From: a virus
DNA: 64,000 nt
Reading direction: 5' to 3' (one strand)
Virus record (IMG/VR): IMGVR_UViG_3300027541_000218
Location: 1-64,000 of that record
Position numbers and translations under genes: made by a program. Shown piece after piece: positions 161 to 17,001 of the stretch (positions are counted from its first letter, which is position 1; each line of letters begins with the position of its first letter). The notes below the pieces were generated by a model. The model was given only the letters and a program-made list of their open reading frames with translations, ran no database searches and was not told the origin of the DNA.

Positions 161-192
161 ACCAAACCACCACAAACAGAAAGGTAAAACAA

Positions 193-360: not shown

Positions 361-447
361 CAGAATTGCTCTCTGTGTTCACGGCAGACTGCGATCTAAA
401 ACTAGATTAGATTGAACTTTCTGCGAAAGTCCCTTGAGAGCCTTCAT
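361..447 (+). ncRNA. structured RNA candidate between two early genes
   Basis: Perfect inverted repeats nest here. GCTCTC (368-373) pairs with GAGAGC (436-441) and encloses ATCTA/TAGAT (394-398 with 403-407) and ACTTTC/GAAAGT (416-421 with 425-430). This resembles a junction closed by a 6-bp helix. It is not a tRNA, because no T-loop or anticodon arm fits. It lies directly before hairpin copy B. It could be a 3' untranslated structure of the preceding gene rather than a separate RNA; no promoter was seen. Confidence 0.4.
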
Positions 448-471
448 CCTGAGCATGATGTAAAACTGCTC
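448..471 (+). repeat. GAGCA/TGCTC hairpin element, copy B
   Basis: CCTGAGCA, a TGATG loop start, then TAAAACTGCTC. The stem and the TAAAAC loop end match copy A. It closes the structured stretch 361-447 and is followed by a C-rich run (CCCCCCGACCC, 477-487). Confidence 0.7.
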
Positions 472-565: not shown

Positions 566-595
566 TAGTTATACCAACAAGAAAGGAAAGCCCTA

Positions 596-2551: not shown

Positions 2552-2563
2552 ACTAATTCAACA

Positions 2564-2599
2564 CCTGAGCAAGTGTAAAAACTGCTCACTATTTTTTTT
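2564..2599 (+). terminator. intrinsic terminator built on hairpin element copy D
   Basis: CCTGAGCA, loop AGTGTAAAA, then ACTGCTC, followed by ACTA and eight T residues (2592-2599). Of the five copies this one has the clearest U-tract. It suggests the family derives from, or acts as, transcript 3' ends. Confidence 0.7.
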
Positions 2600-2745: not shown

Positions 2746-2772
2746 ATATTTACACCAAGAAAGGAAATAAAA

Positions 2773-3458: not shown

Positions 3459-3581
3459 ATGGACATTTACTTAGAGGAACTCACCAAAACTGTAGCCTAT
3501 CACGATTCGTATTGTGATTGCCGTGATTGCGCTATGTATTATTTTCTAACAGAAAGGGAAAATGAAAATGCCAATGTATGA
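3459..3581 (+). CDS. small Cys-rich protein (40 aa)
   Basis: ATG stands a few bases after TAAGACT with no good Shine-Dalgarno site, so translation may be near-leaderless. The product contains YCDCRDCAMYYF, a three-Cys cluster resembling the CDC motif of the 2997 gene. It overlaps the following gene by 20 nt in another frame. Confidence 0.45.
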   Translation: MDIYLEELTKTVAYHDSYCDCRDCAMYYFLTERENENANV

Positions 3582-3750
3582 CCTAAAGGTAGTAGTAGAG
3601 TATTTCTATGAAGTAGAAGCAGAGACTGAGGAACAAGCAGAGGAACTTGGTTGGCACTATGAAGACCACGCTTACTCAGGCGAAGTTTATTCTATTGAGG
3701 TATGGGAAAAAGAAGAAGAGGAAGTAGAACTAGATGAGGAGGTTAAGTAA
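3562..3750 (+). CDS. very acidic small protein (62 aa)
   Basis: It is preceded by CAGAAAGGGA (3550-3559), a perfect 10-nt complement of the loop of the noncoding RNA at 7104-7239. The protein begins MKMPMYDLKVVVEYFYEVEAE and ends in a Glu/Lys-rich tail. Small acidic phage proteins sometimes act as protein or DNA mimics, but nothing here proves that. The stop overlaps the next ATG. Confidence 0.65.
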   Translation: MKMPMYDLKVVVEYFYEVEAETEEQAEELGWHYEDHAYSGEVYSIEVWEKEEEEVELDEEVK

Positions 3751-4481
3751 TGCCTAACTGGTGCTATAACTATCTTGACATATCAGGTGATGAAGCCTTG
3801 GTTGCAGATGTAAAACGACAACTCAACAAACCATTTGTCATGAGCCATGATTCATGGAATATGAATACAAAACAAATGGAAATATCAGAAACAAGTTATT
3901 CAAACCCTGTCTTTGCATTTCATAATATATATAATCATAGACAAGACGGTATCTCAGATGAGGATTACATAAAGCAACCTGACCATACCCTGCCTTTAGA
4001 AGAATCTCTTATGTTCAAGGGCAACCATTGGTACGACTGGAATGTTCGCAACTGGGGAACCAAATGGGATGTTGCAGTTCGTGACGGTGATGAGTATCCT
4101 GAGACTGAGTTATATGAAGAGACTGATAGTTCTGTGGGGTATAAGTTTAATACTGCTTGGTCTCCACCTGTTGAGGCTATAACTAAACTATCAGAACAGT
4201 ATCCTAGCCTAGAGATGAATCTATCTTATGAGGAAGAAACTGGTTGGGGTGGTTCTGTCAACTTCAATAACGGTATTGCTACTGAAGAAGAATCATATGA
4301 AAACAAATGTAGAGATTGTGATTCACTAAATAGTTTAGAATACTGTGAAAATGATTGTGGTGAGATTTGTTCAGAGTGTAATTATATGGGGGAAGCAGAC
4401 CTTGACTGTGTTGCGGAATGTGATACCCACAAGGTATACTTGGACAATGTGCCAGAATACAGAAAGGTAAGCAATGATTGA
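3750..4481 (+). CDS. MPNWCYN-type YubB/DUF1281 ferredoxin-like protein (243 aa)
   Basis: The N-terminus MPNWCYNYLDISGD is the hallmark of the DUF1281/YubB ferredoxin-like family common on plasmids and phages, whose function is unknown. The middle has the family-type region WNVRNWGTKWDV (near residue 100) and FNTAWSPP (near 133). A C-terminal extension of about 60 residues carries Cys pairs (CRDCDS, CENDCGEICSECN) and looks like a zinc-binding add-on. Coupled on both sides by short overlaps. Confidence 0.75.
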   Translation: MPNWCYNYLDISGDEALVADVKRQLNKPFVMSHDSWNMNTKQMEISETSYSNPVFAFHNIYNHRQDGISDEDYIKQPDHTLPLEESLMFKGNHWYDWNVRNWGTKWDVAVRDGDEYPETELYEETDSSVGYKFNTAWSPPVEAITKLSEQYPSLEMNLSYEEETGWGGSVNFNNGIATEEESYENKCRDCDSLNSLEYCENDCGEICSECNYMGEADLDCVAECDTHKVYLDNVPEYRKVSND

Positions 4482-4671
4482 CAAGTTAGTAGAATATATC
4501 AAGTTACATGCTCTTAGCATGGAGCAAGATATTGAAAACATTCATACTAAATATGAAGCAGGTGGTATGTATTCAAATGAGGATACGTACATGGAAGAGT
4601 ATTTGGCAGGTGCCATTGCTGCCTGCTATCATATTCTATCTACAATTGACGAGTTCAGAAAGGAACAGTAG
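4474..4671 (+). CDS. hypothetical early protein (65 aa)
   Basis: ATG follows CAGAAAGG (4460-4467) and overlaps the upstream gene by 8 nt. The product is predicted helical (MIDKLVEYIKLHALSMEQD). No domain recognised. The stop overlaps the GTG of the next gene. Confidence 0.6.
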   Translation: MIDKLVEYIKLHALSMEQDIENIHTKYEAGGMYSNEDTYMEEYLAGAIAACYHILSTIDEFRKEQ

Positions 4672-4946
4672 TGGAAATATCACCAACAACATTAGAACCA
4701 TACCTGCAAAAACAGGTAGACCATGATATCAGCGGTATCGATATCATGCACGGTCACCTAAAAGTTCTCATGCTGCAGGCAGAGCAAGAACTAATTAATG
4801 CACAGGCTTTGGAGGATGAAACTGAAGAGGCTATGGATTCTATGGAACGTAAATATTGGGAGGGTATGTGTGACGCATATGCTCATCTATATAGTTTGAC
4901 ATATGATTTATCATTCGCAATAGCAGCAAGAAAGGAAGAAGAATAA
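4671..4946 (+). CDS. hypothetical early protein, GTG start (91 aa)
   Basis: The frame opens at GTG, overlapping the previous stop by one base, with CAGAAAGG (4656-4663) as ribosome binding site. The product is long-helical and Glu-rich (LMLQAEQELINAQALEDETE). No motif identifies it. Coupled to the following gene through TAATG. Confidence 0.6.
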   Translation: MEISPTTLEPYLQKQVDHDISGIDIMHGHLKVLMLQAEQELINAQALEDETEEAMDSMERKYWEGMCDAYAHLYSLTYDLSFAIAARKEEE

Positions 4947-5296
4947 TGGGAGCACGTTGTACATTTGTATTTAAAACTAGTGAGGACCATGCCGTGGCAC
5001 TATACAGCCACTGGGGTGAGGACTCGTTGTATCCAGACCTGGCAGCGGCATTGAATCATGCAAGACCTAGGTGGACGGACCCTTCATATGGTACCCGTAT
5101 GGCAATTAGTTATTTAATTCAGGATAACATCATGGACGAGACTGGCTTTGGTATCTATGGGTGTGACCCTACGGACCAGGCATTCATGGACACACCAATC
5201 ACAATTGATTTTACAGATAATACTGTAGGCAATGGTGAAGACTGGCATTCATTTGATGAGTTTGTTAATTATCATGGAATGGCTATCTCAAAATAA
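4946..5296 (+). CDS. conserved-looking phage protein, function unknown (116 aa)
   Basis: ATG is preceded by AAGAAAGGAAG. The protein starts MGARCTFVFKTSEDHAVALY and includes SHWGEDSL and ARPRWTDPSYGTRMAISYL, a layout I associate with small uncharacterised actinophage proteins. It is probably globular and cytoplasmic. Last gene of its operon; a strong terminator follows. Confidence 0.65.
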   Translation: MGARCTFVFKTSEDHAVALYSHWGEDSLYPDLAAALNHARPRWTDPSYGTRMAISYLIQDNIMDETGFGIYGCDPTDQAFMDTPITIDFTDNTVGNGEDWHSFDEFVNYHGMAISK

Positions 5297-5892: not shown

Positions 5893-5921
5893 TTGACAGC
5901 CTGCAGCAGATGTGCTATGCT
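5893..5921 (+). promoter_or_regulatory. consensus promoter reading into the non-coding stretch
   Basis: TTGACA, a 17-bp spacer, then TATGCT. No open reading frame of note follows, so the product is probably a small RNA. Confidence 0.6.
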
Positions 5922-5927
5922 GTGGGC

Positions 5928-5986
5928 TGCGCCCCGACCCTATCTTTCAAATTCCAAACACTTTATTACGAAGATAGTATTTTTTT
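5928..5986 (+). ncRNA. candidate small RNA upstream of the origin-like region
   Basis: Downstream of the promoter comes a GGGC/GCCC mini-hairpin followed by CCCCGACCC (5932-5940). Then CTATCTT (5940-5946) pairs with AAGATAG (5971-5977), immediately followed by TAT and more T residues (to 5986). Promoter plus hairpin plus T-tract gives a transcript of about 60 nt. CCCCGACCC is the exact complement of the GGGTCGGGG motif at 1396 and 2640. Confidence 0.4.
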
Positions 5987-6115
5987 CCCAGAATTTTTAT
6001 TACGATCAAACATAAAAAATCCCAGCATTTTATCAAACAAATTTTTATTTGTCAAATCAGGGTTATATCCCTTATACTGTATATAGGTATGTTTGTCAAG
6101 GATCTTTTATATACC

Positions 6116-6145
6116 GCCGCCGAATGGCGGCAGCCCCGAAGGGGC
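6116..6145. repeat. tandem GC-rich hairpins in AT-rich DNA
   Basis: GCCGCC-GAAT-GGCGGC (6116-6131) is followed directly by GCCCC-GAA-GGGGC (6133-6145). Both stems are perfect with GNA-type or GAAT loops. They stand out from strongly AT-rich flanks and have no T-tract. They could be a protein- or primase-recognition structure. Confidence 0.5.
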
Positions 6146-6276
6146 GTGAGATTTCCCAAAAAAACATTAAGAACCCTTTTCAAAAAATCCCTGAAAGTTT
6201 GGCGGGGTACAAAAAGATATACCCAAATCCCTCTATATAAAACATTACGAAAACACTTTATTTTTCCCTGATTTTC

Positions 6277-6350
6277 AAACATTTTAAAACATTTTTATAT
6301 GGTTTTATAACATTTTGTTATGGTTTTTAAACATTTTTAAACCACATTTT
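6277..6350. repeat. iteron-like AACATTTT / TATGGTTTT repeats
   Basis: Five ACATTTT units start near 6279, 6288, 6310, 6331 and 6344. Two 19-nt direct repeats with the pattern TATGGTTTT-NN-AACATTTT lie at 6298-6316 and 6319-6337, differing at two bases. Further ATGGT units follow at 6382-6397. The arrangement resembles iterons of replication origins. Confidence 0.45.
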
Positions 6351-6373
6351 GTCTATAATTTGGGACAAATCAT

Positions 6374-6402
6374 TTGACAAATATGGTTTGATATGGTATT
6401 AT
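6374..6402 (+). promoter_or_regulatory. consensus promoter within the origin-like region
   Basis: TTGACA, a 17-bp spacer, then TATTAT. A second TTGACA lies at 6420-6425 with a poorer TATGGG at 17 bp. Transcripts would run through a polypyrimidine tract (6511-6538) and the DnaA boxes, as primer RNAs do at some origins. Confidence 0.5.
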
Positions 6403-6572
6403 GCAGGCTATTTGGCTATTTGACATATAAGGTTTTATATGATATGGGGTTTGGGAACTGGGTTGGTTTGAACTGTCGCATTACGATCCATCTTCTAAAG
6501 ATGTTCCATTCCCCACTTTCCTCCCTTTTCCTCCACCTATAGTATATGAAAATATAATCAGTAATATATTTT

Positions 6573-6593
6573 TGTGGATAAACCTGTGGATAA
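6573..6593 (-). promoter_or_regulatory. two exact DnaA boxes
   Basis: TGTGGATAA at 6573-6581 and 6585-6593 are both exact reverse complements of the DnaA box TTATCCACA. A third imperfect copy, TGTGGAAAA, lies at 6605-6613. The starts are 12 and 20 bp apart. Confidence 0.55.
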
Positions 6594-6653
6594 CTATGAG
6601 ATTTTGTGGAAAACGGGGTATACAAATCAGGACATTTAGGCTATACTTGTCAT

Positions 6654-7019
6654 ATGCAATTCATTCCTGAGCATCAAACCAATAACCTAATCTTGAGGTT
6701 TATAGCCAATCAGATATTTCACCGTATATCCCATATGTTCTTATCTAGGTCATTAAGGATATATTATATATATGAGAATGAGTATGATGAGGATAACTCC
6801 TTTGTACCGCCGAAGTTTGACCATCTTAGAATTAGAACCTATAACTGGCTATACAATGTTTTAGATAAGCCATATAGTAGATGGGGAACACATTACGATA
6901 TATCTTTTGATGATGAAGACCAAGAATTAATGGATAGGCTTGGCTCTGATTATGACGAGAATGGTATCCCATATTGGGAGAAGACAGGAACAGTGGATCC
7001 AGATTATGATTTACGATAA
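6654..7019 (+). CDS. hypothetical protein, leaderless start (121 aa)
   Basis: ATG 6654 is preceded by TATACT at 6642-6647 with exactly six bases between. That predicts a leaderless mRNA, and no Shine-Dalgarno site is present. An upstream in-frame GTG at 6606 lies inside the DnaA-box area and is less likely. The N-terminal half is hydrophobic/basic (ILRFIANQIFHRISHMFLSR) and the C-terminal half acidic (DISFDDEDQELMDRLG). No family recognised. Confidence 0.55.
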   Translation: MQFIPEHQTNNLILRFIANQIFHRISHMFLSRSLRIYYIYENEYDEDNSFVPPKFDHLRIRTYNWLYNVLDKPYSRWGTHYDISFDDEDQELMDRLGSDYDENGIPYWEKTGTVDPDYDLR

Positions 7020-7068
7020 AATATCTACATGCCTTGAATGGCTAAGTATAAATGACATTGAATGGGAT

Positions 7069-7098
7069 TTGACATACTAGCCAACACTTTGCTATAAT
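7069..7098 (+). promoter_or_regulatory. perfect-hexamer promoter for the 7104 RNA
   Basis: TTGACA, an 18-bp spacer, then TATAAT: both hexamers are exact consensus, among the strongest promoters in the window. The predicted start (about 7104-7106) coincides with the first base of the closing helix CTAGAAG. Confidence 0.75.
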
Positions 7099-7103
7099 TA
7101 TAT

Positions 7104-7239
7104 CTAGAAGGCATGAACGGCTGATGGTTTACCGTGTGGTCGTACCTCTTCTAGCATCCGCTCCCTTTCTGGCGGATAAGTCGCCTCTCCCTTTCTGGAG
7201 GCGCACTCCTGAGCATGAGTCTAAACTGCTCCCTTTCTG
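7104..7239 (+). ncRNA. noncoding RNA with anti-Shine-Dalgarno-mimic loops
   Basis: CTAGAAG (7104-7110) pairs with CTTCTAG (7148-7154), closing a 5' domain with nested ACGG/CCGT. Two hairpins follow with different 6-bp stems but the identical loop TCCCTTTCTG: ATCCGC/GCGGAT (7156-7177) and CGCCTC/GAGGCG (7182-7203). Hairpin element copy E (7208-7231) then leads into a third CTCCCTTTCTG (7229-7239). Different stems with an invariant loop are typical of functional RNA. CCUUUCU equals the 16S rRNA 3' tail and complements the AGAAAGG ribosome binding sites of the left-arm genes. No protein of note is encoded. The 3' end is uncertain. Confidence 0.6.
7208..7231 (+). repeat. GAGCA/TGCTC hairpin element, copy E
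   Basis: CCTGAGCA, TGAGT loop start, TAAACTGCTC. It lies at the 3' end of the anti-SD-type RNA, supporting a 3'-end role for this repeat family. Its TGCTC arm overlaps the third CTCCCTTTCTG repeat. Confidence 0.65.
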
Positions 7240-7251
7240 TATAATATAGAT

Positions 7252-7344
7252 ATGAGTCTATACAGAGAAAAGAATGAGTTTATTCCCATTATGAGGGATA
7301 CAGATGATCATATAGATGATTATGAAGCAATAGGCATTGATTGA
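7252..7344 (+). CDS. short acidic peptide, leaderless (30 aa)
   Basis: TATAAT (7240-7245) is followed by six bases and ATG 7252, matching the leaderless spacing of other genes here. The 30-residue product is acidic (RDTDDHIDDYEAIGID). The -35 is poor. It could be a real small protein or a chance frame behind the noncoding RNA. Confidence 0.35.
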   Translation: MSLYREKNEFIPIMRDTDDHIDDYEAIGID

Positions 7345-7347
7345 TAT

Positions 7348-7394
7348 ACCCCAACCATATTGCCCTGCAAAGGGGCAAATGTTGGTTGTGGGGT
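7348..7394. terminator. bidirectional terminator-like hairpin between converging genes
   Basis: ACCCCAACCA (7348-7357) pairs with TGGTTGTGGGGT (7383-7394), with one bulge. An inner ATTGCCC/GGGCAAAT stem forms around a TGCAAA loop. It separates the rightward 7252 transcript from the leftward gene ending at 7396. On the plus strand TCTATTTT follows. Confidence 0.65.
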
Positions 7395-7395
7395 T

Positions 7396-8040
7396 CTATT
7401 TTGCGCCGAACTTTAAACGCCGCTTTTCCCATATTTCTAGATCTTGCGGATGATCAAAGTCTTCAGTCCAGTCGTTGATTTCAACATAGTTTGATTTATT
7501 TGTAAAGTGATGCTGTACCCGTAGGCTTTCAAGGTTCCTTATCTTTTTATACAACAGGTATGTTCCAGGACCTTTTTTGTTTTCTTCTATTACCTGCTGT
7601 AGGACATTACGAACGAACTCTTTTTGTCCCCCGTCAAAACTCAATGCAAATATTTCTTTATATTTTTTGCCAGTAATTTTTGATGCTTTGGGGCGTAGAA
7701 AAAACTGTATTGGATCTATATTATTTGCTATTGTCTCTACCGCTTGATCAGAAAACCAAACATCACCAAATGCAATAATTGTTCTATCTTCCCCCCACAG
7801 ATGGACTGATGAGTACAGTTTGGCTGCATCATTCCAGTTGCCTTCAAGAGGATATTCAGTGGCAGCATTTATACTTATATTGTTTTTAGATATTACGACT
7901 ATATCATTGCTAAACTTATTAAACTGATTAATGGTTCTGTTTAGCAGTGGTTCGCCATCTATTATTGCAAGATGTTTTGGGGTATTACGAAAGTTATTCC
8001 AACGTGTACCTTTTCCTGCTGCTGGAATGATTACTCTCAT
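7396..8040 (-). CDS. NTP-transferase / sugar-1-phosphate nucleotidyltransferase-like protein (214 aa)
   Basis: The N-terminus MRVIIPAAGKGTRW carries the GxGTRW-type nucleotide-binding loop of NTP transferases. It is followed by TPKHLAIIDGEPLLNRTI (near residues 20-37), with the Lys of the PKHL motif expected to contact phosphate. AFGDVWF (near 90) supplies the metal-binding Asp. The length fits a single-domain nucleotidylyltransferase without the left-handed helix domain. It could activate a sugar or phosphocholine-like group for the glycan cassette downstream, or act on the host surface. Substrate cannot be inferred. Confidence 0.7.
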   Translation of the reverse strand: MRVIIPAAGKGTRWNNFRNTPKHLAIIDGEPLLNRTINQFNKFSNDIVVISKNNISINAATEYPLEGNWNDAAKLYSSVHLWGEDRTIIAFGDVWFSDQAVETIANNIDPIQFFLRPKASKITGKKYKEIFALSFDGGQKEFVRNVLQQVIEENKKGPGTYLLYKKIRNLESLRVQHHFTNKSNYVEINDWTEDFDHPQDLEIWEKRRLKFGAK

Positions 8041-8041
8041 G

Positions 8042-8224
8042 TCAGTCCATATAAACTAATACATCAAATGCTTCTTCGCAAGATATACATAGTGATGTTG
8101 GCTTGCCTTTAACATACTTACCGTCGCCGAGAATTATTTTTCCGCTTTTTTGCATGTCTAATAGATCTGGCGTTAATTTACCATAAATAATTGGTAATAG
8201 TTTTACATGACATTTTGGACACAT
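8042..8224 (-). CDS. zinc-ribbon protein of the CPKC...GKVILG type (60 aa)
   Basis: I start it at MCPKCHVKLLPIIYG, where TAGAAT lies seven bases before the ATG in leaderless style. The longer frame from 8287 would overlap the divergent CDGSH gene. CPKC (residues 2-5) and CISC near the C-terminus form a probable zinc knuckle pair. The LPIIYGKLTPDLLD...GKIILGDG middle matches a widespread small zinc-ribbon family of unknown role. It directly precedes the nucleotidyltransferase. Confidence 0.6.
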   Translation of the reverse strand: MCPKCHVKLLPIIYGKLTPDLLDMQKSGKIILGDGKYVKGKPTSLCISCEEAFDVLVYMD

Positions 8225-9100: not shown

Positions 9101-9344
9101 TTGGACAGAGGAACTCTCAGACGAGCAGAAGAAGCAAGTCTGGGAGTTCATTGTTTTTACAGTAAAAGAAATACGAGAGCAGATTGCTCTTGATATTGAG
9201 TATACTTATGAAGTATGGGCTACACACGGCAAAACAAAAAGTCGTAGAACTAAAAAGGCTTTTGAAGTTTGTGCAGATATAGCCAGAGGATTAAACGAAA
9301 GGATGCCAGATGAAACTAACAGAGGCAGCACAGGAGAAGGTTAG
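9093..9344 (+). CDS. hypothetical protein downstream of SSB (83 aa)
   Basis: I choose ATG 9093 (MPNWTEELSDEQKKQ), which overlaps the end of ssb by 8 nt. An upstream ATG at 9066 would lie deeper inside ssb. The product is predicted helical with a basic patch THGKTKSRRTKKAFE. It overlaps the Fe-S carrier gene by 35 nt. No family recognised. Confidence 0.6.
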   Translation: MPNWTEELSDEQKKQVWEFIVFTVKEIREQIALDIEYTYEVWATHGKTKSRRTKKAFEVCADIARGLNERMPDETNRGSTGEG

Positions 9345-9639
9345 AGAATTAATTAAGGGTACACAAATTGCTATCCCTAATCATGAAATATTCTTACGTG
9401 TTACTGTAATGCCTGGAGGATGCTCAGGGCTAAAACATCAAACATATTTTGATTACGAAAAACGTGATAATGATAGCGTGTTTAGTTATGATGGGTTTGA
9501 TCTTAGAGTAGATAATCTATCTTTGCCTTATCTAGATGGGGCTACCATAGAATACTTTGATACCATTGAAAAACAAGGATTTTTTCTAGATAATCCAAAT
9601 GCTACAGGAACATGTTCTTGTGGTGATAGTTTTCACTAA
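9310..9639 (+). CDS. A-type Fe-S carrier (IscA/ErpA/HesB family) (109 aa)
   Basis: Family length and all three cluster-binding Cys are present: Cys38 in VMPGGCSGL, and Cys102 and Cys104 in GTCSCGDSF. LTEAAQEKVRELI at the N-terminus and the YLDGATIEYFD segment also fit. A-type carriers accept Fe-S clusters from the ISC/SUF scaffold and deliver them to apoproteins. Likely clients in this phage are the CDGSH protein, WhiB (23116) and the Cas4-like nuclease (39068). ATG is preceded by CGAAAGGA. Confidence 0.9.
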   Translation: MKLTEAAQEKVRELIKGTQIAIPNHEIFLRVTVMPGGCSGLKHQTYFDYEKRDNDSVFSYDGFDLRVDNLSLPYLDGATIEYFDTIEKQGFFLDNPNATGTCSCGDSFH

Positions 9640-9645
9640 TGGTGT

Positions 9646-9651
9646 TATACT
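9646..9651 (+). promoter_or_regulatory. TATACT -10 box, leaderless geometry
   Basis: TATACT is followed by six bases (CACCAT) and ATG 9658. The -35 is poor. Spacing is identical to the other leaderless starts. Confidence 0.5.
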
Positions 9652-9657
9652 CACCAT

Positions 9658-9939
9658 ATGACAACAAACAGAATAGTTGCTCTTAGCACAACTTCACCTT
9701 TATTGCTAAGTCCTGCAGGAACACACTCTGGAGTTGATATCACAGTGCAAAATATCAACGCTACAGGATATGTTTATCTTGGCGGATCAAATTTAACTAA
9801 CGCAAATTATGGTTTTAGAATTGATCCTAGCCATGCAATTTCAATTGAATTAAATGGAAGAGATGCTTTGTATGCCCTTGGTTCTACCAGTGGATTATCT
9901 GCTTCTATTCTTATGACTAATCTAGAACAAGGAATGTAA
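9658..9939 (+). CDS. putative virion-associated beta protein (93 aa)
   Basis: Beta-rich and Thr/Ser/Asn-rich, with DITVQNINATGYVYLGGSN and ISIELNGRDALYALG. This composition recurs in small phage head- or tail-associated proteins that present a repeated binding fold. No signal peptide. It is coupled to the collagen-like gene by the TAATG overlap, so the two may form one virion appendage. Structural role inferred. Confidence 0.55.
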   Translation: MTTNRIVALSTTSPLLLSPAGTHSGVDITVQNINATGYVYLGGSNLTNANYGFRIDPSHAISIELNGRDALYALGSTSGLSASILMTNLEQGM

Positions 9940-10508
9940 TGGCACGTTTTTATAATCCACCAGATGTTGGCGTACCTGGTCCACAAGGTCCACAAGGTCC
10001 TACTGGTCCGCAAGGTCCACAAGGAGATCCTGGTCCTGCTGGAGGATTTGGATATTCAGCATCATATTGGAGCACTGTAGATCAAACTGGAACAAGTGGA
10101 TCTATTCAAGCACATACATTAAATAATATTGATTGGGAAGATGGAATTCAGTTAGTAGATAATTCTAAAATTACCTTTTTATATGCTGGTAAATACAATA
10201 TTGCATTTTCTGATCAGTGGCACCACACTGGCGGTGGAGGATCTGGTAGCACAGTAAATATTTGGCTTGCAAAAAACGGTACAGCAATAGAGGATACAAA
10301 TACAAAAGTAATTGTTAACACTAATAATCCTTATTATGTTGCAGCATGGAACTTTTTTGTTAATGCTAGTACAAATGATTATTATCAAATAATGTGGTCT
10401 GCTGATACTACAACTATAAAATTAGAAGCAGAGCCTGGAACTGGCAGTGGTGCAAATCGCCATCCGTCAATTCCTTCTGTTATTGTAACTGTTAACCAAG
10501 TAGGTTAA
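9939..10508 (+). CDS. collagen-like virion/receptor-binding protein (189 aa)
   Basis: Residues 11-36 are Gly-x-y triplets (GVPGPQGPQGPTGPQGPQGD and so on), a trimeric collagen-like stalk. They are followed by a C-terminal beta-rich globular domain of about 150 residues. Segments such as YAGKYNIAFSDQWHH and NGTAIEDTNTKVIV fit a C1q/TNF-like jelly roll. Such proteins are trimeric phage fibres or head fibres. Location far from the tail operon, together with its 93-aa partner, suggests an accessory fibre. Composition at the stalk is G+C-richer than the surroundings. Confidence 0.7.
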   Translation: MARFYNPPDVGVPGPQGPQGPTGPQGPQGDPGPAGGFGYSASYWSTVDQTGTSGSIQAHTLNNIDWEDGIQLVDNSKITFLYAGKYNIAFSDQWHHTGGGGSGSTVNIWLAKNGTAIEDTNTKVIVNTNNPYYVAAWNFFVNASTNDYYQIMWSADTTTIKLEAEPGTGSGANRHPSIPSVIVTVNQVG

Positions 10509-10509
10509 T

Positions 10510-10538
10510 TTGACAAAACCTAGGGGTAGGTATATAAT
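10510..10538 (+). promoter_or_regulatory. perfect consensus promoter, leaderless
   Basis: TTGACA, a 17-bp spacer, TATAAT, then AGAAGT and ATG 10545. It is the clearest example of the leaderless promoter class on the plus strand and probably drives the glycan cassette. Confidence 0.8.
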
Positions 10539-10544
10539 AGAAGT

Positions 10545-10658
10545 ATGGAAAAGGGTAGAGTAGTTATTTGTGATTTATGCAATAAAACTATAGAAGTTCG
10601 TTGGGGTATTTTTGCTCATCAATCTTTATACCGCCATAAAAAGGCTGATCATAAATGA
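10545..10658 (+). CDS. small C2H2-like zinc-finger protein (37 aa)
   Basis: VICDLCNKTIEVRWGIFAHQ followed by SLYRHKK places Cys-x2-Cys and a His pair as in a zinc finger. Six bases separate ATG from the -10 box. The stop overlaps the next ATG (ATGA). Role unknown; possibly a regulator of the cassette it leads. Confidence 0.6.
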   Translation: MEKGRVVICDLCNKTIEVRWGIFAHQSLYRHKKADHK

Positions 10659-11347
10659 AACAAAGAATCATTGAGTTTGCTGCAGATGGTACAGCAATTC
10701 CAGATATAAAACCTTCTAAAAACTCTATACCCACATGGTATAAAGATATACCAACTTTTAACAAAAAGAATATAGTCTTTAATGATGGCATAGAGCCATT
10801 TAAAAATGTCAAATCATGTGTACCATTTTTAGATGCAATGAACACTGGTTATACCGTTACACTATGGTCAGACGTTTATTGTAATCTTGGTGATACTGGT
10901 AATCATAATTTTAGATGGACAATCGGACCAGATCCTATTTTATACCGTGGTAAAAATAAACATTTTTTAACTACAACAGATGAGTTTACTGATGATAGTT
11001 TTGCATGGCAGTCTCCATACTGCTTTAAATTACCAGATGGTTACAGTGCTATTGTAACTCACCCATTTAATAGGCATGACTTGCCCTTTGTTACACTTAC
11101 AGGAATTGTAGATGCCGATGATATTATGACTTCTGGTAATGTACCGTTTTTGCTTAAAAAGGACTTTAGTGGTATCATTGAAATAGGAACTCCTTTATTT
11201 CAGATTATTCCATTCAAAAGAGAAACTTGGAAAGCAGAAAGAAATGAAGAACTTCTCAAAATTGCTAATGATCAAAAAATTTCATCACAAAGAAAGTTTT
11301 TTAATTATTACAGAGATAAAATTTGGAAAAAGAAAGAATATCTATAG
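10655..11347 (+). CDS. uncharacterised phage protein, paralogue of the 21545 gene (230 aa)
   Basis: It shares with the leftward gene at 21545 the order P-x-W(Y/W)KDIP, a VK-C-P-D-TAGY/NTGY region, LWSD, a LPDGYS/VPDGYS motif and GIVD/GVVDTD. Both also have PF(L/F)(L/I)K, FSG-IE-GTP and IPFKRE/IPFRRD near the C-terminus. The family is common in environmental phages and resembles a jelly-roll or cupin-like fold. I do not know its activity. The two copies bracket the glycan cassette at both ends, which suggests a shared role with it. Confidence 0.65.
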   Translation: MKQRIIEFAADGTAIPDIKPSKNSIPTWYKDIPTFNKKNIVFNDGIEPFKNVKSCVPFLDAMNTGYTVTLWSDVYCNLGDTGNHNFRWTIGPDPILYRGKNKHFLTTTDEFTDDSFAWQSPYCFKLPDGYSAIVTHPFNRHDLPFVTLTGIVDADDIMTSGNVPFLLKKDFSGIIEIGTPLFQIIPFKRETWKAERNEELLKIANDQKISSQRKFFNYYRDKIWKKKEYL

Positions 11348-11355
11348 GAGATAAT

Positions 11356-12081
11356 ATGCCACACAGCGTAAAAGAAAGAATAACAATTGGATGGTGCGAT
11401 AACGGAGTTGTAGAAGGACGTTTTGCAAGCGGTATTGTTAATACTGTCATTCAAGGAAAAGAATTTGGATTAAATATTATTAACACTATTCGTGTTAATG
11501 GTAATCAGATTGCACGTCAAAGACAATCTTTATGGGATTTTTGGGCAGACCTATCTGATAGTGAATGGTTGTTATGGGTTGATTCTGATATTATCATTAC
11601 CCCACAAGTTGTAAAAATGCTTTGGGAAGTTGCAGATAAAAAGACTAAGCCAGTTGTAACGGGGACATATTTTGTTTCTGCAGAAAACGAACAAACTCTT
11701 ATGAGACCAATGCCAGCGTTGTATTTAGAAACAGGTGATATTTATCAAACACAAGTTTTACATCCTTTGCCAGAAAATCAGGTTGTTCCAGTAGATGTGG
11801 CTGGGTTTGGACTTATGCTAATGCACCGCTCAATTATTGATCCAGTAAAGGCTGTTGCTGGTGATATTTCTGTGTTTGGAGAAAACCAACAGGCTGCTAA
11901 TAAGTTTGTTAGTGAAGATGTTTCATTCTGTCGCAATCTTAAGAAAGCAGGATTCCAATTGTACGCACATACTGGTGCAACTGTTCAGCATATGAAAACA
12001 TTTTCATTTGATAAAAACTATTACAACATATATTGGGATGCTATGACTAGCGGAAAGATTAAGAAGCCCGAAAATGGCTGA
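11356..12081 (+). CDS. GT-A fold glycosyltransferase-like protein (241 aa)
   Basis: I start at ATG 11356 behind AGGAG, not at the upstream in-frame codon in the preceding gene. EWLLWVDSDIIITPQVV (near residues 69-85) provides the DxD metal/nucleotide-sugar motif. VDVAGFGLMLMHRS (near 152-165) and FVSEDVSFCRNLKKAG (near 186-201) are the acceptor-side and catalytic-acid-like regions of GT-A enzymes. Likely modifies a phage or host glycan. Confidence 0.75.
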   Translation: MPHSVKERITIGWCDNGVVEGRFASGIVNTVIQGKEFGLNIINTIRVNGNQIARQRQSLWDFWADLSDSEWLLWVDSDIIITPQVVKMLWEVADKKTKPVVTGTYFVSAENEQTLMRPMPALYLETGDIYQTQVLHPLPENQVVPVDVAGFGLMLMHRSIIDPVKAVAGDISVFGENQQAANKFVSEDVSFCRNLKKAGFQLYAHTGATVQHMKTFSFDKNYYNIYWDAMTSGKIKKPENG

Positions 12082-12331
12082 TCCAAATCAAACTCCACAA
12101 AGAGGTGATTGGGCTTGTCCATGCAATGGCTGTAAAAAGGCTGTTGCTTTTGAACGCAAACAACTTTTAGAACTACTTGAAGTAACCAAAGTTGAATATC
12201 AGATTTATCGTGGGTCAAGTTTTGATAAAGATGGCAATCTTCTTTGGATGAAAGATGATGTTGAAGCATATTCTGAAGGAATAGATGTTGCAATTAATTT
12301 AATAAAAAGCAGAATGGATAAAAAGAAATGA
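12074..12331 (+). CDS. hypothetical protein with Cys cluster (85 aa)
   Basis: DWACPCNGCKKAVAFERKQL at the N-terminus has three Cys (C-x-C-x2-C) and could bind a metal. The rest is a helix-rich segment. It overlaps the neighbouring genes by 8 and 4 nt, so it is coupled into the glycan operon. Function unknown. Confidence 0.6.
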   Translation: MADPNQTPQRGDWACPCNGCKKAVAFERKQLLELLEVTKVEYQIYRGSSFDKDGNLLWMKDDVEAYSEGIDVAINLIKSRMDKKK

Positions 12332-13857
12332 AACTATTGGCAATAGGTATGCAACATCACGATCATAATGCAGCATATTTTGATGGAGAAAAACTACACT
12401 ATCATAAATTTGAAAGAACAAAACAAATTAAACACTTTGAATATGAAAATAGATGGGAAATATTTAAAGATGTTCAAGAACTATGGAACTTTAAATTAGA
12501 TGAAATAGATGATATTGTTATTGATTATGACTATGCTACCTTTTTTCAAAACATAGACCCAGAGTTTGATTTAACAAGACCAGAAGTGTTATTTTATAGA
12601 ATACCAAAAAAATACAATCCTTTTGAATCTTTTGGTATAAAAAATGCATGGCATATAAGCCATCATTATTCTCACGCCTTATCCACATGGATGCTAGAAG
12701 ATAAGAATAATTCTCCAAGAGTTAGAGTTGTTATAGATGGCATGGGAAATAATAAAACATGTACAATTTTTGAAAATAATGTTGTTATAAAGAGTGTATA
12801 TGAGGCTGACGCTGGATCAATTGGGTTTCATATGAACAATGCTGCTATGTGGCTTGGTGTAAACAAAGTGAGTTCGCTTGACAATGCTGGCAAAGTTATG
12901 GGCTTACAGTCATACGGAAGGGTTCATGACCAATACTTAAAAGAAATTAATGAGTTTGGAATTGATAATGCTAATGCCATATTTGACTTGACTAGATGGA
13001 ATAACTACATGAAAGATCCATTGTTAACTAATCTTACCCCTCTTGACTGGATTAGAACTGTGCATGAAAGAGTTGGGGATCTTTTAGTAGAACTATTTAG
13101 TAAGTATATTAATAAAGAAGAAAGTGTTTCGTACTCTGGAGGAGTAGCACAAAATGTTGTATGGAATACAAAACTAATTCATAATTTTCCTAATATAATT
13201 ATTCCACCACATTCTAGTGATGAAGGATGTAGTTTAGGTGCAATTGAATGGTTAAGAAAATATCACGATCTTCCTGAGTTTAAACTTGAAAACTTTCCAT
13301 ATTGTCAAAATGATTATGCTCCAAGCACAGAGCCTACAGATGAAACAATTAAGTATGCAGCCAAAATGTTGGCAGAAAATAAGATTGTAGGTTGGTATCA
13401 GGGACATGGGGAAGTTGGTCCTAGAGCGTTGGGTCATAGGTCTATATTAATGAATCCTGCTATACCGCTTGGAAAAGAAATTATTAATTCTGTTAAAAAA
13501 CGAGAAAACTATAGACCATTTGGAGCATCTGTTTTATCTGAGCATGTACTAGATTATTTTAAATATGATATAAAAGATCCACACATGCTATTTACTAATG
13601 ACTTTAAGGTTGATACGTTCCCAGCAATTACTCACGTTGATGGCACTTGTAGAACTCAAACGGTAGAAAATGATGGATCTGCATACAGAAAACTAATTGA
13701 AGAATTTTATAAGTTGACTGGACATGCATTAATTCTGAATACTAGTTTAAACATTAATGGAAAACCAATTGCAGGATATCCTGAGAATGCTATTGACTTG
13801 TTTGAGTTTTCTATGATAGACTGTATGATAATTGGAAATACAATATTAAATAAATAA
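12328..13857 (+). CDS. O-carbamoyltransferase, NodU/CmcH (TobZ-like) family (509 aa)
   Basis: Family landmarks occur in order: HHYSHA (112-117), GGVAQN (271-276, the YrdC/Kae1-like nucleotide site), then the C-domain QGHGEVGPRALGHRSIL (near 358-374). RENYRPFGASVL and ALILNTSLNINGKPI follow near the end. The enzyme uses carbamoyl phosphate and ATP to make carbamoyl-adenylate and transfers the carbamoyl group to a hydroxyl. In this operon the acceptor may be a sugar; modified DNA bases are an alternative in phages, though no base hydroxymethylase is visible. Full length. The stop is followed immediately by the tRNA cluster. Confidence 0.9.
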   Translation: MKLLAIGMQHHDHNAAYFDGEKLHYHKFERTKQIKHFEYENRWEIFKDVQELWNFKLDEIDDIVIDYDYATFFQNIDPEFDLTRPEVLFYRIPKKYNPFESFGIKNAWHISHHYSHALSTWMLEDKNNSPRVRVVIDGMGNNKTCTIFENNVVIKSVYEADAGSIGFHMNNAAMWLGVNKVSSLDNAGKVMGLQSYGRVHDQYLKEINEFGIDNANAIFDLTRWNNYMKDPLLTNLTPLDWIRTVHERVGDLLVELFSKYINKEESVSYSGGVAQNVVWNTKLIHNFPNIIIPPHSSDEGCSLGAIEWLRKYHDLPEFKLENFPYCQNDYAPSTEPTDETIKYAAKMLAENKIVGWYQGHGEVGPRALGHRSILMNPAIPLGKEIINSVKKRENYRPFGASVLSEHVLDYFKYDIKDPHMLFTNDFKVDTFPAITHVDGTCRTQTVENDGSAYRKLIEEFYKLTGHALILNTSLNINGKPIAGYPENAIDLFEFSMIDCMIIGNTILNK

Positions 13858-13933
13858 TGGTCTGTAGTTCAGTTGGCAGAACAAGGCACTGTTAATGCCT
13901 GGGTCGTAGGTTCGAGTCCTACCAGACCAGCCA
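13858..13933 (+). tRNA. tRNA-Asn (GTT)
   Basis: TGGTCTG/CAGACCA acceptor, anticodon loop CTGTTAA giving GTT, T-arm GTAGG-TTCGAGT-CCTAC, discriminator G and an encoded CCA. It begins one base after the carbamoyltransferase stop. Confidence 0.95.
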
Positions 13934-13934
13934 A

Positions 13935-14008
13935 GCGAATATTGCATAGTGGTAGTGCGTAACCTTGCCAAGGTTAATGTGCGAGTTCGATTCTCGCTAT
14001 TCGCTCCA
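13935..14008 (+). tRNA. tRNA-Gly (GCC)
   Basis: GCGAATA/TATTCGC acceptor, anticodon loop TTGCCAA giving GCC, T-arm GCGAG-TTCGATT-CTCGC, discriminator T and encoded CCA. Confidence 0.95.
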
Positions 14009-14009
14009 A

Positions 14010-14083
14010 GGTCCGTTAGTTCAGTTGGTTAGAACGCCACCCTGTCACGGTGGAGGTCGTGAGTTCAAGTCTCATACGGATCG
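14010..14083 (+). tRNA. tRNA-Asp (GTC)
   Basis: GGTCCGT/ACGGATC acceptor with one G-U pair, anticodon loop CTGTCAC giving GTC, T-loop TTCAAGT, discriminator G. CCA is not encoded. Confidence 0.93.
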
Positions 14084-14087
14084 CTAA

Positions 14088-14159
14088 GTCTCCATCGTCT
14101 AGTGGTTAGGACAACACCCTTTCACGGTGTAAACGAGAGTTCAATTCTCTCTGGAGATA
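14088..14159 (+). tRNA. tRNA-Glu (TTC)
   Basis: GTCTCCA/TGGAGAT acceptor with one G-U pair, anticodon loop CTTTCAC giving TTC, T-arm GAGAG-TTCAATT-CTCTC, discriminator A. CCA is not encoded. Confidence 0.93.
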
Positions 14160-14306
14160 CTCGAAATAACATCTGAACAATGTTATGGAGATCGTTATTA
14201 CTGAAACTGAGTTCGTGGGCGCATCATACGAAGGTGTTCAGACCGAAGGAGATTGCTCTGCTACCCCACTAGGTAATAACAGCCAGCGGAGACTTTGTGG
14301 CTGGCA
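14160..14306 (+). ncRNA. structured RNA candidate inside the tRNA cluster
   Basis: ATAACAT-CTGAACA-ATGTTAT (14166-14186) is a perfect 7-bp hairpin. GTTATTAC (14194-14201) pairs with GTAATAAC (14273-14280), enclosing a GTGGG/CCCAC pairing. GCCAGC/GCTGGC (14282-14305) ends it. The first hairpin's loop CTGAACA is the exact complement of TGTTCAG (14235-14241), itself in a GGT/ACC mini-hairpin, which predicts a kissing loop. It is not a tRNA. A 44-codon frame at 14185-14319 crosses it but runs into tRNA-Thr and looks incidental. Confidence 0.5.
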
Positions 14307-14309
14307 TTT

Positions 14310-14381
14310 GCCTCCTTAACTCAGGGGTAGAGTACCCGCCTTGTAAGCGGGTTGTCGTAGGTTCAAATCCTACAGGAGGCT
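14310..14381 (+). tRNA. tRNA-Thr (TGT)
   Basis: GCCTCCT/AGGAGGC acceptor, anticodon loop CTTGTAA giving TGT, T-arm GTAGG-TTCAAAT-CCTAC, discriminator T. CCA is not encoded. The next gene's GTG begins two bases later. Confidence 0.93.
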
Positions 14382-14382
14382 C

Positions 14383-15306
14383 GTGGCACACTTATCAATT
14401 AAAGAATTGTCTAAGCGCAATAACTTTCAGACCTTTGTCTATAGAATAGGCATTGGTCAAGGGTTTTATCTTGTTAATACAGATATACTTGTTAAGTTAA
14501 ATAAATCTATTTTAGAAAATATTTTATCAGTTGACGATTTAAATAATTATAAAGTTGGTAGATCAATACAATTACCAACTGAAACTAATGATTTAGTTCC
14601 ATTAAGTATGCTTTATAAAGACTCAGATTTTTCTACTAGAACACAAAATACAACAGCAAAACAAGATGAACAGATATTTAATATTGCATGTTTAATGGAT
14701 AGTATTAAAAATGAAAGTGGCTTAGAATATGTGCCAATTAAAATTATAGATAATATATATAATGTAAGGTCAATAAAATCTTTAGAAGATAAATCCAAGG
14801 CTGATTTTTGTTTCATAGACTTAGATGGTAAAGAAGTAGGTTTTGTATCACATAAAGATGGTATAAGCCCTAGAGACTTCCAACAGTGGTCTGGTACATC
14901 AAAAAGATTTCAAGAAGAAATATTTTTACATCCTGAGACTCAAGATTTTATTTCTGTTTTGAAAGAAAATTTTAATGACAGTCTTCCACCAGCGTCAACA
15001 GTAGCAAGAAAAATATCAGATCAAAGACTAAAACATCTTGCCGTATTTGGTAATGATTTTGGTCAAGTGCTTGGTAGAAACAATGTTGAGGCTGTAATGC
15101 AAGGAGATTTACAACTTATATTTAAGAATGAATACTGTGAATTGGTTGGATCTCACTATACTATTAAGAATGGAGAGATACCTGTTTACGGATATGAGCC
15201 AGTGCTTATGGCAGTACACAAAAGAGATAGAAGCGATCATTGGATTAAAAACTGTAGGCTTACTATAAATCCATTAGGTACTAGAACTATTAAGTTGTTC
15301 ATATAG
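14383..15306 (+). CDS. conserved phage protein, possible PD-(D/E)XK-type nuclease (307 aa)
   Basis: The GTG start abuts tRNA-Thr, so no Shine-Dalgarno site is possible and translation presumably follows tRNA processing. The segment KSKADFCFIDLDGKEVGFVS (near residues 138-157) has the spacing of a restriction-type nuclease core (D...D/E-x-K-like). It is followed by HKDGISPRDFQQWSG. I recall this HKDG...DFQQW arrangement from uncharacterised proteins of other large phages. Nuclease activity is a guess; no neighbour confirms it. Confidence 0.5.
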   Translation: MAHLSIKELSKRNNFQTFVYRIGIGQGFYLVNTDILVKLNKSILENILSVDDLNNYKVGRSIQLPTETNDLVPLSMLYKDSDFSTRTQNTTAKQDEQIFNIACLMDSIKNESGLEYVPIKIIDNIYNVRSIKSLEDKSKADFCFIDLDGKEVGFVSHKDGISPRDFQQWSGTSKRFQEEIFLHPETQDFISVLKENFNDSLPPASTVARKISDQRLKHLAVFGNDFGQVLGRNNVEAVMQGDLQLIFKNEYCELVGSHYTIKNGEIPVYGYEPVLMAVHKRDRSDHWIKNCRLTINPLGTRTIKLFI

Positions 15307-15337
15307 TTGATGCTATAATTATATAAAAGGGGTAATA

Positions 15338-16291
15338 TTGGCTAAAATTGTATTCTTAGGTAACTTTAGTGTTGACTACAGTAGTGAAACGCATCATGCT
15401 AAATCATTAGAGGCTCTTGGGCATACCGTCGTTAAAATGCAGGAGCAAAAGGCTAAGAGCAATGTTATTCTTGCTGAAGCATTACAAAGCGATTTATTTG
15501 TATGGGTTCATACTCATGGCTGGAAGACTCCAGGATCACCTTCTATGGATGTAGTTTTAACTGAATTAAAGAAGGCTGGCATACCAACAATGACCTATCA
15601 TCTTGATCTTTGGTTTGGACTAAAACGACAAAAAGATTTAGAAAATGATAATTTTTATAGAACAATTGGTCACTTCTTTACTGTAGATAAACTTATGGCT
15701 GATTGGTTTAATGATAATACATCAGTAAAAGGACACTACCTTCCTGCTGGGGTATATGGAGAAGAGTGTTATTTAGATAGTTCTTATGGAAATGGTTACG
15801 AGCATGACATTATATTTGTTGGAAGTAAGGGTTATCACCCAGAATATCCATATCGCCCAATGTTAATTGACTATCTAAGACAAACCTATGGCAAAAGATT
15901 TTTACATGTTGGTGGAGATGGCGATACTGGAACTGTGCGTGGAGAAAAGTTAAATAGGATTTATGCTAAAAGTAAGATTGCAATTGGAGATAGTTTAAAT
16001 TTAAATTTTGACTATCCGTATTATACAAGTGATAGACTATTTGAAAGTACTGGTCGTGGTGGGTTCACAATCTACCCTGATATTAAAGGACTAAGAGATT
16101 TATTTGTAGATAAAGAAGAAATTGTTTTTTATGAACATGGTAACTTTAAAGATCTAAAAAACAAAATAGATTATTATCTTGAGCATGATGAAGAACGTGA
16201 AAAGATAAGGGTCGCTGGACATGAAAGAACTAAAAAAGAACATACATATGTTCATAGATGGGCAACAATAATAAGGGAGTTAAACCTATGA
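15338..16291 (+). CDS. GT-B glycosyltransferase-like protein (317 aa)
   Basis: TTG start at 15338 with AAAGGGG eight bases upstream; a TATAAT box (15315 area) may give a local promoter. The N-domain begins IVFLGNFSVDYSSETHH. The C-domain has HDIIFVGSKGYHPEYPYRP and RFLHVGGDGDTGTVRGEKL, then the sugar-nucleotide region SDRLFESTGRGGFTIYPDI and a terminal EHTYVHRWATI helix. This is the layout of glycosyltransferases with a group-1-like C-terminal domain. Stop overlaps the next ATG. Confidence 0.75.
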   Translation: MAKIVFLGNFSVDYSSETHHAKSLEALGHTVVKMQEQKAKSNVILAEALQSDLFVWVHTHGWKTPGSPSMDVVLTELKKAGIPTMTYHLDLWFGLKRQKDLENDNFYRTIGHFFTVDKLMADWFNDNTSVKGHYLPAGVYGEECYLDSSYGNGYEHDIIFVGSKGYHPEYPYRPMLIDYLRQTYGKRFLHVGGDGDTGTVRGEKLNRIYAKSKIAIGDSLNLNFDYPYYTSDRLFESTGRGGFTIYPDIKGLRDLFVDKEEIVFYEHGNFKDLKNKIDYYLEHDEEREKIRVAGHERTKKEHTYVHRWATIIRELNL

Positions 16292-17001
16292 CAGAGATGG
16301 TTAAAGCCGTTATAAACGGAGAGTTTGAAATAACATTACCAAAGCATAGGGCAGATAGACCAGACTGGTATCAACCACAAGGTTGGGAGAAACCAAGATT
16401 AAAGTCTATGCATGAAAATATTGGTGAAAACGATGTTGTTTACTATGTTGGTGCTGAAGAAGGAGAGATGCCAGCATTATGTCAGATGTGGGGTGCTGAG
16501 GTTGTTTTATTTGAGCCTAACCCAAAAGTTTGGTCACACTTTCCATTACTTTGGAGTGCTAATAATTTAAAAATGCCACTTGCCTGTATTCCTGGATTTG
16601 CATCAGATAAAGATAATAAGTTAGCAAGAATTTATTACAGCGAGTTTCCACCAGAGGCTGATTCTCCTATTGAGGCAGCGCATGGATTTAAAGAACTTCA
16701 GTATGAAGCAGATAAATATGGACAAACTAAAATTGATACTCTTGTTTATGAAAAAGGATTAAAGCCACCAACAGTAATCTCTCTTGATGTTGAGGGAAGT
16801 GAATGGCGTGTTCTTGGTGGTGCAGAAAAAACAATGAGAGAATTTAGACCAAAAATTTGGTTATCTGGTCATCCAGAATTTATGATGATGTATTGGAAAG
16901 AATATCTATATGATTTAAGACAGTTTATTAAAGGCATTGGATATAAAGAATATCTTTTAGATTATCAACATGAGGTTCATTTTTATTATGAACCAGCCTA
17001 A
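16288..17001 (+). CDS. FkbM-family methyltransferase (237 aa)
   Basis: Start at ATG 16288, overlapping the previous stop and preceded by AAGGGAG. DVVYYVGAEEGEMPALCQMWGAE (near residues 46-68, read in parts) is the SAM-binding loop. VVLFEPNP is the acidic strand-2 motif. KIDTLV ... PTVISLDVEGSEWRVLGGAE (near 146-175) is the diagnostic FkbM region. FkbM enzymes O-methylate sugars or polyketides, so it likely caps a glycan built by the surrounding transferases. Confidence 0.85.
   Translation: MTEMVKAVINGEFEITLPKHRADRPDWYQPQGWEKPRLKSMHENIGENDVVYYVGAEEGEMPALCQMWGAEVVLFEPNPKVWSHFPLLWSANNLKMPLACIPGFASDKDNKLARIYYSEFPPEADSPIEAAHGFKELQYEADKYGQTKIDTLVYEKGLKPPTVISLDVEGSEWRVLGGAEKTMREFRPKIWLSGHPEFMMMYWKEYLYDLRQFIKGIGYKEYLLDYQHEVHFYYEPA

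Follow-up and report, generated by a model that had tools for sequence, protein, structure and literature searches.

The window, a stretch of 64,000 nucleotides from the 73.8-kb record of an uncultured virus, encodes between position 7104 and about 7235 a conserved phage noncoding RNA of about 130 nt, the transcription of which is predicted from its promoter. Its structure is conserved among relatives, its hairpin loops keep a constant core while the stems that carry them change, and this core is complementary to the ribosome-binding sites of early genes. The structural evidence for this apparently new RNA family is strong, and a putative regulatory role of a known type is plausible. We consider it probable that this trans-acting small RNA (sRNA) would pair with the early ribosome-binding sites and lower the translation of several early mRNAs.

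Architecture and relatives of the sRNA

The TTGACA-18-TATAAT promoter proposed in the first-pass annotation was located at 7069-7098 (Table 1), and perfect promoters of this type occur three times in the window compared with 0.11 expected. Upstream of the sRNA in the relatives, the boxes are conserved as TTGACA/TTGCAT and TATAMT, with a sigma70-type promoter in each. The transcript had been placed at about 7104, on the first base of a 7-bp closing helix; the start of the helix at 7104 stood, whereas the predicted fold gives it a length of 8 bp. The start site as such is deduced from the sequence, and it is supported because the 5' helices of most members begin 6-8 nt past the -10 box even though their sequences clearly differ (CTAGAAGG, AGAAGGG, CAGTCAA, GCAGGCAA and TTAAGAGC); a few members were left unresolved by the script.

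Both of the stems described earlier, ATCCGC/GCGGAT and CGCCTC/GAGGCG, are present and carry the same loop, TCCCTTTCTG. The predicted fold of the RNA has an energy of -45.8 kcal/mol (z -2.5 to -2.7), in which the eight core loop bases are unpaired with a probability of 0.96-1.0, and the loop sequence or its complement has four matches in the window where 0.08 would be expected. The third copy of the loop sequence also exists, at 7230-7239, but it is poorly kept in relatives, among which it is the least conserved part of the sRNA; the third CTCCCTTTCTG could possibly belong to a pyrimidine-rich 3' tail. Directly past the pseudoknot, most relatives show a TATAAT-N6-ATG layout ahead of varying ORFs, and since a leaderless gene lies 3' of the pseudoknot in most of them, the 3' end of the sRNA is apparently bounded there. 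The leaderless ORF at 7252-7344, together with the consensus promoters, would fit a putative actinobacterial host.

Table 1. Positions of the sRNA parts, the putative target sites and the further pseudoknot copies in the window
Feature	Position	Strand	Support or remark
Promoter TTGACA-18-TATAAT, extended -10	7069..7098	+	promoter search; similar boxes upstream of relatives
5' helix, from predicted transcript start	7104..7154	+	predicted folds; relatives' helices
Hairpin 1, stem ATCCGC/GCGGAT, loop TCCCTTTCTG 7162-7171	7156..7177	+	covariation, loop accessibility
Hairpin 2, stem CGCCTC/GAGGCG, loop TCCCTTTCTG 7188-7197	7182..7203	+	covariation, loop accessibility
3' H-type pseudoknot, S1 7205-7208/7217-7220, S2 GAGC 7211-7214/GCTC 7228-7231	7205..7231	+	covariation
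Third CTCCCTTTCTG	7229..7239	+	overlaps last pseudoknot strand
Downstream unit: TATAAT 7240-7245, 6 nt, leaderless ORF 7252-7344 (30 aa)	7240..7344	+	sequence; relatives
Putative target AGAAAGG, ORF 193-360	178..184	+	9/9 orthologs in sRNA phages
Putative target AGAAAGG, ORF 596-859	580..586	+	9/9 orthologs in sRNA phages
Putative target AGAAAGG, ORF 2773-2994	2758..2764	+	ribosome-binding site position
Putative strongest target CAGAAAGGGA, 10/10 loop complement, ORF 3562-3750	3550..3559 (AGAAAGG 3551)	+	
Putative target AGAAAGG, ORF 4474-4671	4461..4467	+	ribosome-binding site position
Putative target AGAAAGG, ORF 4671-4946	4657..4663	+	ribosome-binding site position
Putative target AGAAAGG, ORF 4946-5296	4929..4935	+	ribosome-binding site position; orthologs
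Pseudoknot copy, S1 TTTC/GAAA, after stop codon	134..160	+	
Pseudoknot copy, S1 CATC/GATG	445..471	+	
Pseudoknot copy, S1 ACAC/GTGT, 10 nt past ORF 1529-2551 stop	2561..2587	+	

When 2.9 million viral contigs were scanned for two CTCCCTTTCTG copies 8-38 nt apart, 21 contigs were obtained, which share a common plan in which the promoter and 5' helix are followed by one or two loop hairpins and then by a conserved element, TCCTGAGCATGAG...TAAA..GCTC. A second scan, with a shorter loop core as the query, yielded seven further members, most of which vary just before CCTTTCTG (TC, AC, TA, AA, TT or CC). The distinct relatives number more than 20, all in uncultured viral contigs, and a few of them have one hairpin only. 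Across 21 distinct members, the four helices formed by the two hairpins and both pseudoknot stems are paired in 97.9% of cells, compared with 34-51% in slid-partner controls; 13 of the 20 pairs are changed on both sides, with 59 double-change cells, and none of 500 shuffles matched the observed covariation on four of five measures. Covariation of the hairpins was also found in a smaller set of 14 members. Based on these compensatory changes, which support a conserved structure, on the 5' helix at the start site and on the separate promoter, the earlier claim of a noncoding RNA holds, and the members appear to form a structured RNA family that is apparently new.

Rfam 15 gave no match at gathering score over 7104-7240, the matches in the window being tRNAs only, and cmscan of 6990-7420 with E up to 10 returned five matches, all far below gathering scores; the loci of five relatives likewise matched only tRNAs. 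Isolate phages had no DNA match to window positions 1-25000 (near) or 5900-8100 (distant), and thus no cultured relative was found. Twenty bacterial and archaeal matches to the double-loop pattern were rejected as members, the best scoring 14.7 bits, and they look like chance matches or tandem repeats. In the open-licence full-text literature, no earlier description of the sRNA or of the pseudoknot was found. Elsewhere in the window, 9310-19594 holds metabolic and sugar-modification genes, including an Fe-S biosynthesis protein (9310-9639), a carbamoyltransferase (12328-13857) and several putative glycosyltransferase-like ORFs, and five tRNA genes lie at 13858-14382.

The loop core and early ribosome-binding sites

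Considering that both scans demanded the loop, and that most relatives come from a loop-containing pattern, these scans cannot answer whether the loop is constant. Loci were also gathered by three loop-blind routes: from relatives of the neighbouring protein, from 80 loci with relatives of a DUF932 protein encoded 5.5 kb upstream, and by a promoter-to-pseudoknot pattern in which no loop letters were specified. With its loops masked, a covariance model run over 3.1 Mb of mostly loop-blind loci scored the two-hairpin members at 50-87 bits and all else at 34 bits or less, and no member with another loop was found in these 3.1 Mb. All members found bear CCTTTCTG, including L051, L483 and L519 with a single hairpin, and the loop core CCUUUCUG is unchanged in all of them, also in those found independently of the loop; in the loop-blind set of about seven distinct members, the stems differ and the core is the same. 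The covariance search that had been suggested for the stems and loop in related phages thus came out in favour of the first-pass annotation, with varying stems and a kept core, which places the loops under strong constraint. Loop positions 5' of CCUUUCUG, the expected place of the anti-Shine-Dalgarno core CUCC, vary in relatives, and the constrained part therefore complements CAGAAAGG and not GGAGG. CCUUUCU, which the first-pass annotation equated with the 16S rRNA tail, may correspond to the 3' end of the host 16S rRNA if that end reads ...CCUCCUUUCU.

The heptamer AGAAAGG is present in the window at chance level, with 11 copies compared with 10.8 expected: seven are early-gene ribosome-binding sites, three are antisense to the loops and one lies elsewhere, so that outside the sRNA locus seven of eight copies are early ribosome-binding sites. 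What is unusual is the placement of AGAAAGG at ribosome-binding sites and not its count. All seven left-arm sites listed in the first-pass annotation were recovered, although their coordinates had been off by a few bases, and the 10-of-10 reverse complementarity between the loop and 3550-3559 was confirmed, as was the use of AGGAG/GGAGG-type sites by the leftward genes. The loops complement the early sites as had been proposed, and their predicted pairing is stronger there than at the sites of leftward genes (median -10.5 versus -6.2 kcal/mol, p 7e-5), a contrast that none of 300 shuffled loops equalled. In separating early from late sites, the loop showed no significant gain over the 16S tail (loop minus anti-Shine-Dalgarno, p 0.10).

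Six further records with the sRNA, among which G003 and G011 look like near-copies, contain 10-16 AGAAAGG sites, most of which share the strand of the sRNA and precede it. In a set of nine sRNA phages, which includes the near-identical G000 and L478, the orthologs of ORF 193 and ORF 596 all have AGAAAGG and those of ORF 1529 all have GAAAGG. For the orthologs of ORF 4946, AGAAAGG was found in 7/9 with the sRNA, 2/9 without it and 2/53 outside the AGAAAGG-using group, a difference that is no more than suggestive. In the DUF932 protein tree, frequent use of AGAAAGG characterises this one group, of 22 rows, the base branch of which is weakly supported, and the sRNA is confined to this group, where it occurs in half of the rows. 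Members of the group that lack the sRNA, including G093, also use AGAAAGG sites; as the sites are kept without the RNA, they are not maintained by it, and the RNA looks to exploit a pre-existing motif. Strict co-occurrence of the sRNA and AGAAAGG (p 9e-7 over all relatives) was set aside as largely a clade effect. A preference for C before and G after AGAAAGG was likewise discarded as a loop-specific signature, since G093 has the same preference. Among the 50 records of terminase relatives, several larger ones do not have the early module in the contig, so that the lack of the sRNA in these carries little weight.

In G093 and other relatives, a stretch of CTCCACTT repeats was considered as a substitute anti-Shine-Dalgarno RNA and rejected, for GGTTTG and TGTGGATAA boxes recur in the same stretch, which resembles a replication origin. 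The origin-like region was seen in relatives without the sRNA (L536 14949, L538 12133, L501 15398, L543 11455 and G093 10496), at about the same genomic place, and comprises GGTTTG repeats, CTCCACTTTA repeats and DnaA-box-like TGTGGATAA behind a conserved TTGACA promoter.

The 3' pseudoknot outside the sRNA

Judging from its sequence matches, the pseudoknot is not specific to the sRNA and is a widespread phage element. The window has four copies, each of which lies in the early region and on its + strand, and the consensus is S1 NNUC/GANN, loop CUGAGCAU and S2 GRGY/GCYC. A scan of viral contigs gave at least 120 stretches. The element was noted at the window copies and in L061-L179, and the matches listed comprise 122 distinct sequences with near-complete covariation. 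In these, A-T or G-C forms the free S2 pair in 122/122, where shuffling predicts 83, and S1 pairs 3 and 4 are formed in 120/122 and 104/122, compared with 72 and 51 expected. The copies are intergenic in 71 of 76 cases, at a median of 17 nt past a stop codon. Matches in isolate phages, from hosts of the genera Nostoc, Mycobacterium, Lactobacillus, Synechococcus and Arthrobacter (among these phages Mycobacterium phage Labelle, Arthrobacter phage Molivia and Lactobacillus phage phiEF-1.1), lie after CDS ends, and in three of the five a tRNA gene follows. In the 11 loci searched, the pseudoknot is covered by no Rfam 15 family. Rfam has no entry for this element, which shows strong covariation, is spread over more than 100 viral contigs and extends to phages of several bacterial phyla. 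It is also found 3' of other structured-looking phage RNAs, and that it protects RNA ends is a guess.

Several further stretches were seen beside copies of the pseudoknot. A possibly structured stretch with a GCGAAAGTCC core lies directly 5' of a copy at window 362-445, L099 ~1743 and L094 ~9433. Structured-looking RNAs of the form TCTGCACCCCGTCACTGGGGAGTCGCAGAT...GTCGGGGGAGACAGCGAC end in the same pseudoknot in L064, L153, L350-L354, L371, L373, L380 and others, and a second type of pseudoknot-ended RNA, GTGACAATATAGTCGCTGT...GTCGGGAAAC, is present in L348, L349 and L357. A third element, GCAGGGTAACCTGCAACCACAAAACCGCATATGGGGATCTGATAAATTTGC, precedes the pseudoknot in L359, L368, L370 and L555 ~14790, and a ribosome-binding site of the sequence AGGAGAA comes after it.

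Mode of action, alternatives and known systems

In the mechanism that we propose, the sRNA would be transcribed from its own consensus promoter (7069-7098), begin with a 5'-protecting helix, form two stable hairpins whose open loops display the CCUUUCU heptamer, with CCUUUCUG as the constant core, and terminate in the H-type pseudoknot. Base pairing of the loops would cover the (C)AGAAAGG ribosome-binding sites of the rightward early genes in competition with the 16S tail, and several early mRNAs would be translated less at once, with initiation blocked as for actinobacterial B11/6C. The (C)AGAAAGG motif would represent the upstream half of the Shine-Dalgarno region, where the open core would pair; as the loop positions that could pair with GGAGG are free to vary, this fits selection of AGAAAGG-type messages and not of all messages. 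The consensus housekeeping promoter suggests, if anything, early expression, and a limiter of early-protein dose is therefore as likely as an early-to-late switch. If this is true, the phage tells its own messages apart by which type of ribosome-binding site they carry, and one RNA controls one class, a translational counterpart of sigma-factor switching. A broader version, in which anti-Shine-Dalgarno mimic sRNAs would rule the early module via a shared motif and be stabilised by a general RNA-protecting pseudoknot of phages of many phyla, is a possibility that we put forward tentatively.

The loops might instead be protein-binding sites, with the RNA titrating or recruiting a CCUUUCU-recognising host or phage protein, for example of the cold-shock or KH-domain type, and with the complementarity to ribosome-binding sites being a by-product of resemblance to the 16S tail. 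We regard this as unlikely: while the same loop on two hairpins with free stems would also suit a sponge, and AGAAAGG sites occur in relatives without the RNA, the constant core exactly complements the early ribosome-binding site of the clade, the sRNA is confined to the clade in which this site is used, and no candidate protein is known. The RNA might also aim at host mRNAs and aid host shut-off, if host sites too end in AGAAAGG(AGG), considering that a CCUUUCU loop could pair with any such extended site and that the strong consensus promoter points to transcription as soon as infection begins; however, the loop positions pairing with GGAGG vary and the part matching the early phage sites is constant, which makes aiming at the host quite improbable. 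Complementarity to the sites gives by itself no direction of effect, and the RNA could act as a decoy or activator that protects or stores early mRNAs or sequesters another anti-Shine-Dalgarno RNA, but pairing across a ribosome-binding site normally stops initiation and the closest analogue, B11, represses (PMC10470900), so that we give this little credence. A cis role, in which the hairpins and pseudoknot would not be a free RNA and would serve the downstream ORF as a leader or as an intercistronic processing structure, seems very improbable, for although the same pseudoknot lies between operon genes in many phages, in most relatives the ORF has its own -10 box 6 nt ahead of the ATG, which makes it leaderless and independent, and the ORF is not the same one across them.

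Repression at the early sites by the sRNA, which remains our preferred reading, has several counterparts. The sRNAs of the RsaE/RoxS and 'cuckoo' types pair with purine-rich sites of many targets through open C-rich UCCC/CCUCC motifs; they are bacterial, have other structures and gave no Rfam match in the window. The pseudoknot alone resembles the coremin exoribonuclease-resistant RNA of plant viruses, GUCCGAAGACGUUAAACUAC, the consensus of which comprises two hairpins, the first with a YGAD or YGNNAD loop (PMC10520033). The commonest phage variant reads GUC-loop-GACGUUAAACU; in contrast to the 4-nt YGAD loop and second hairpin of coremin, however, the phage element departs from that consensus with an 8-nt loop, CUGAGCAU, that pairs in the pseudoknot, and the resemblance may be a lead at most. 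In phages P1 and P7, the loops of the c4 antisense RNA block translation by pairing around the ribosome-binding site (PMC12197685). The loops of the sRNA would likewise pair at ribosome-binding sites, whereas c4 has a single antirepressor message, repeated identical loops are not known for it, and it has no Rfam match at the sRNA locus. The 6C/B11 RNAs of actinobacteria have two hairpins with pyrimidine- or C-rich loops that pair with the ribosome-binding sites of many mRNAs, and either loop of B11 alone is enough for repression (PMC10470900). The phage RNA has two hairpins with pyrimidine loops, to which the ribosome-binding sites of several genes are complementary. The loops differ, being the constant CCUUUCU with core CCUUUCUG instead of the six-C runs of 6C (RF01066), for which cmscan of 6990-7420 at E up to 10 gave no match. 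Here the RNA is encoded by a phage and carries a 3' pseudoknot, and if the proposed action is true, it would be a simple example of a 6C-type RNA device that no bacterial chromosome carries.
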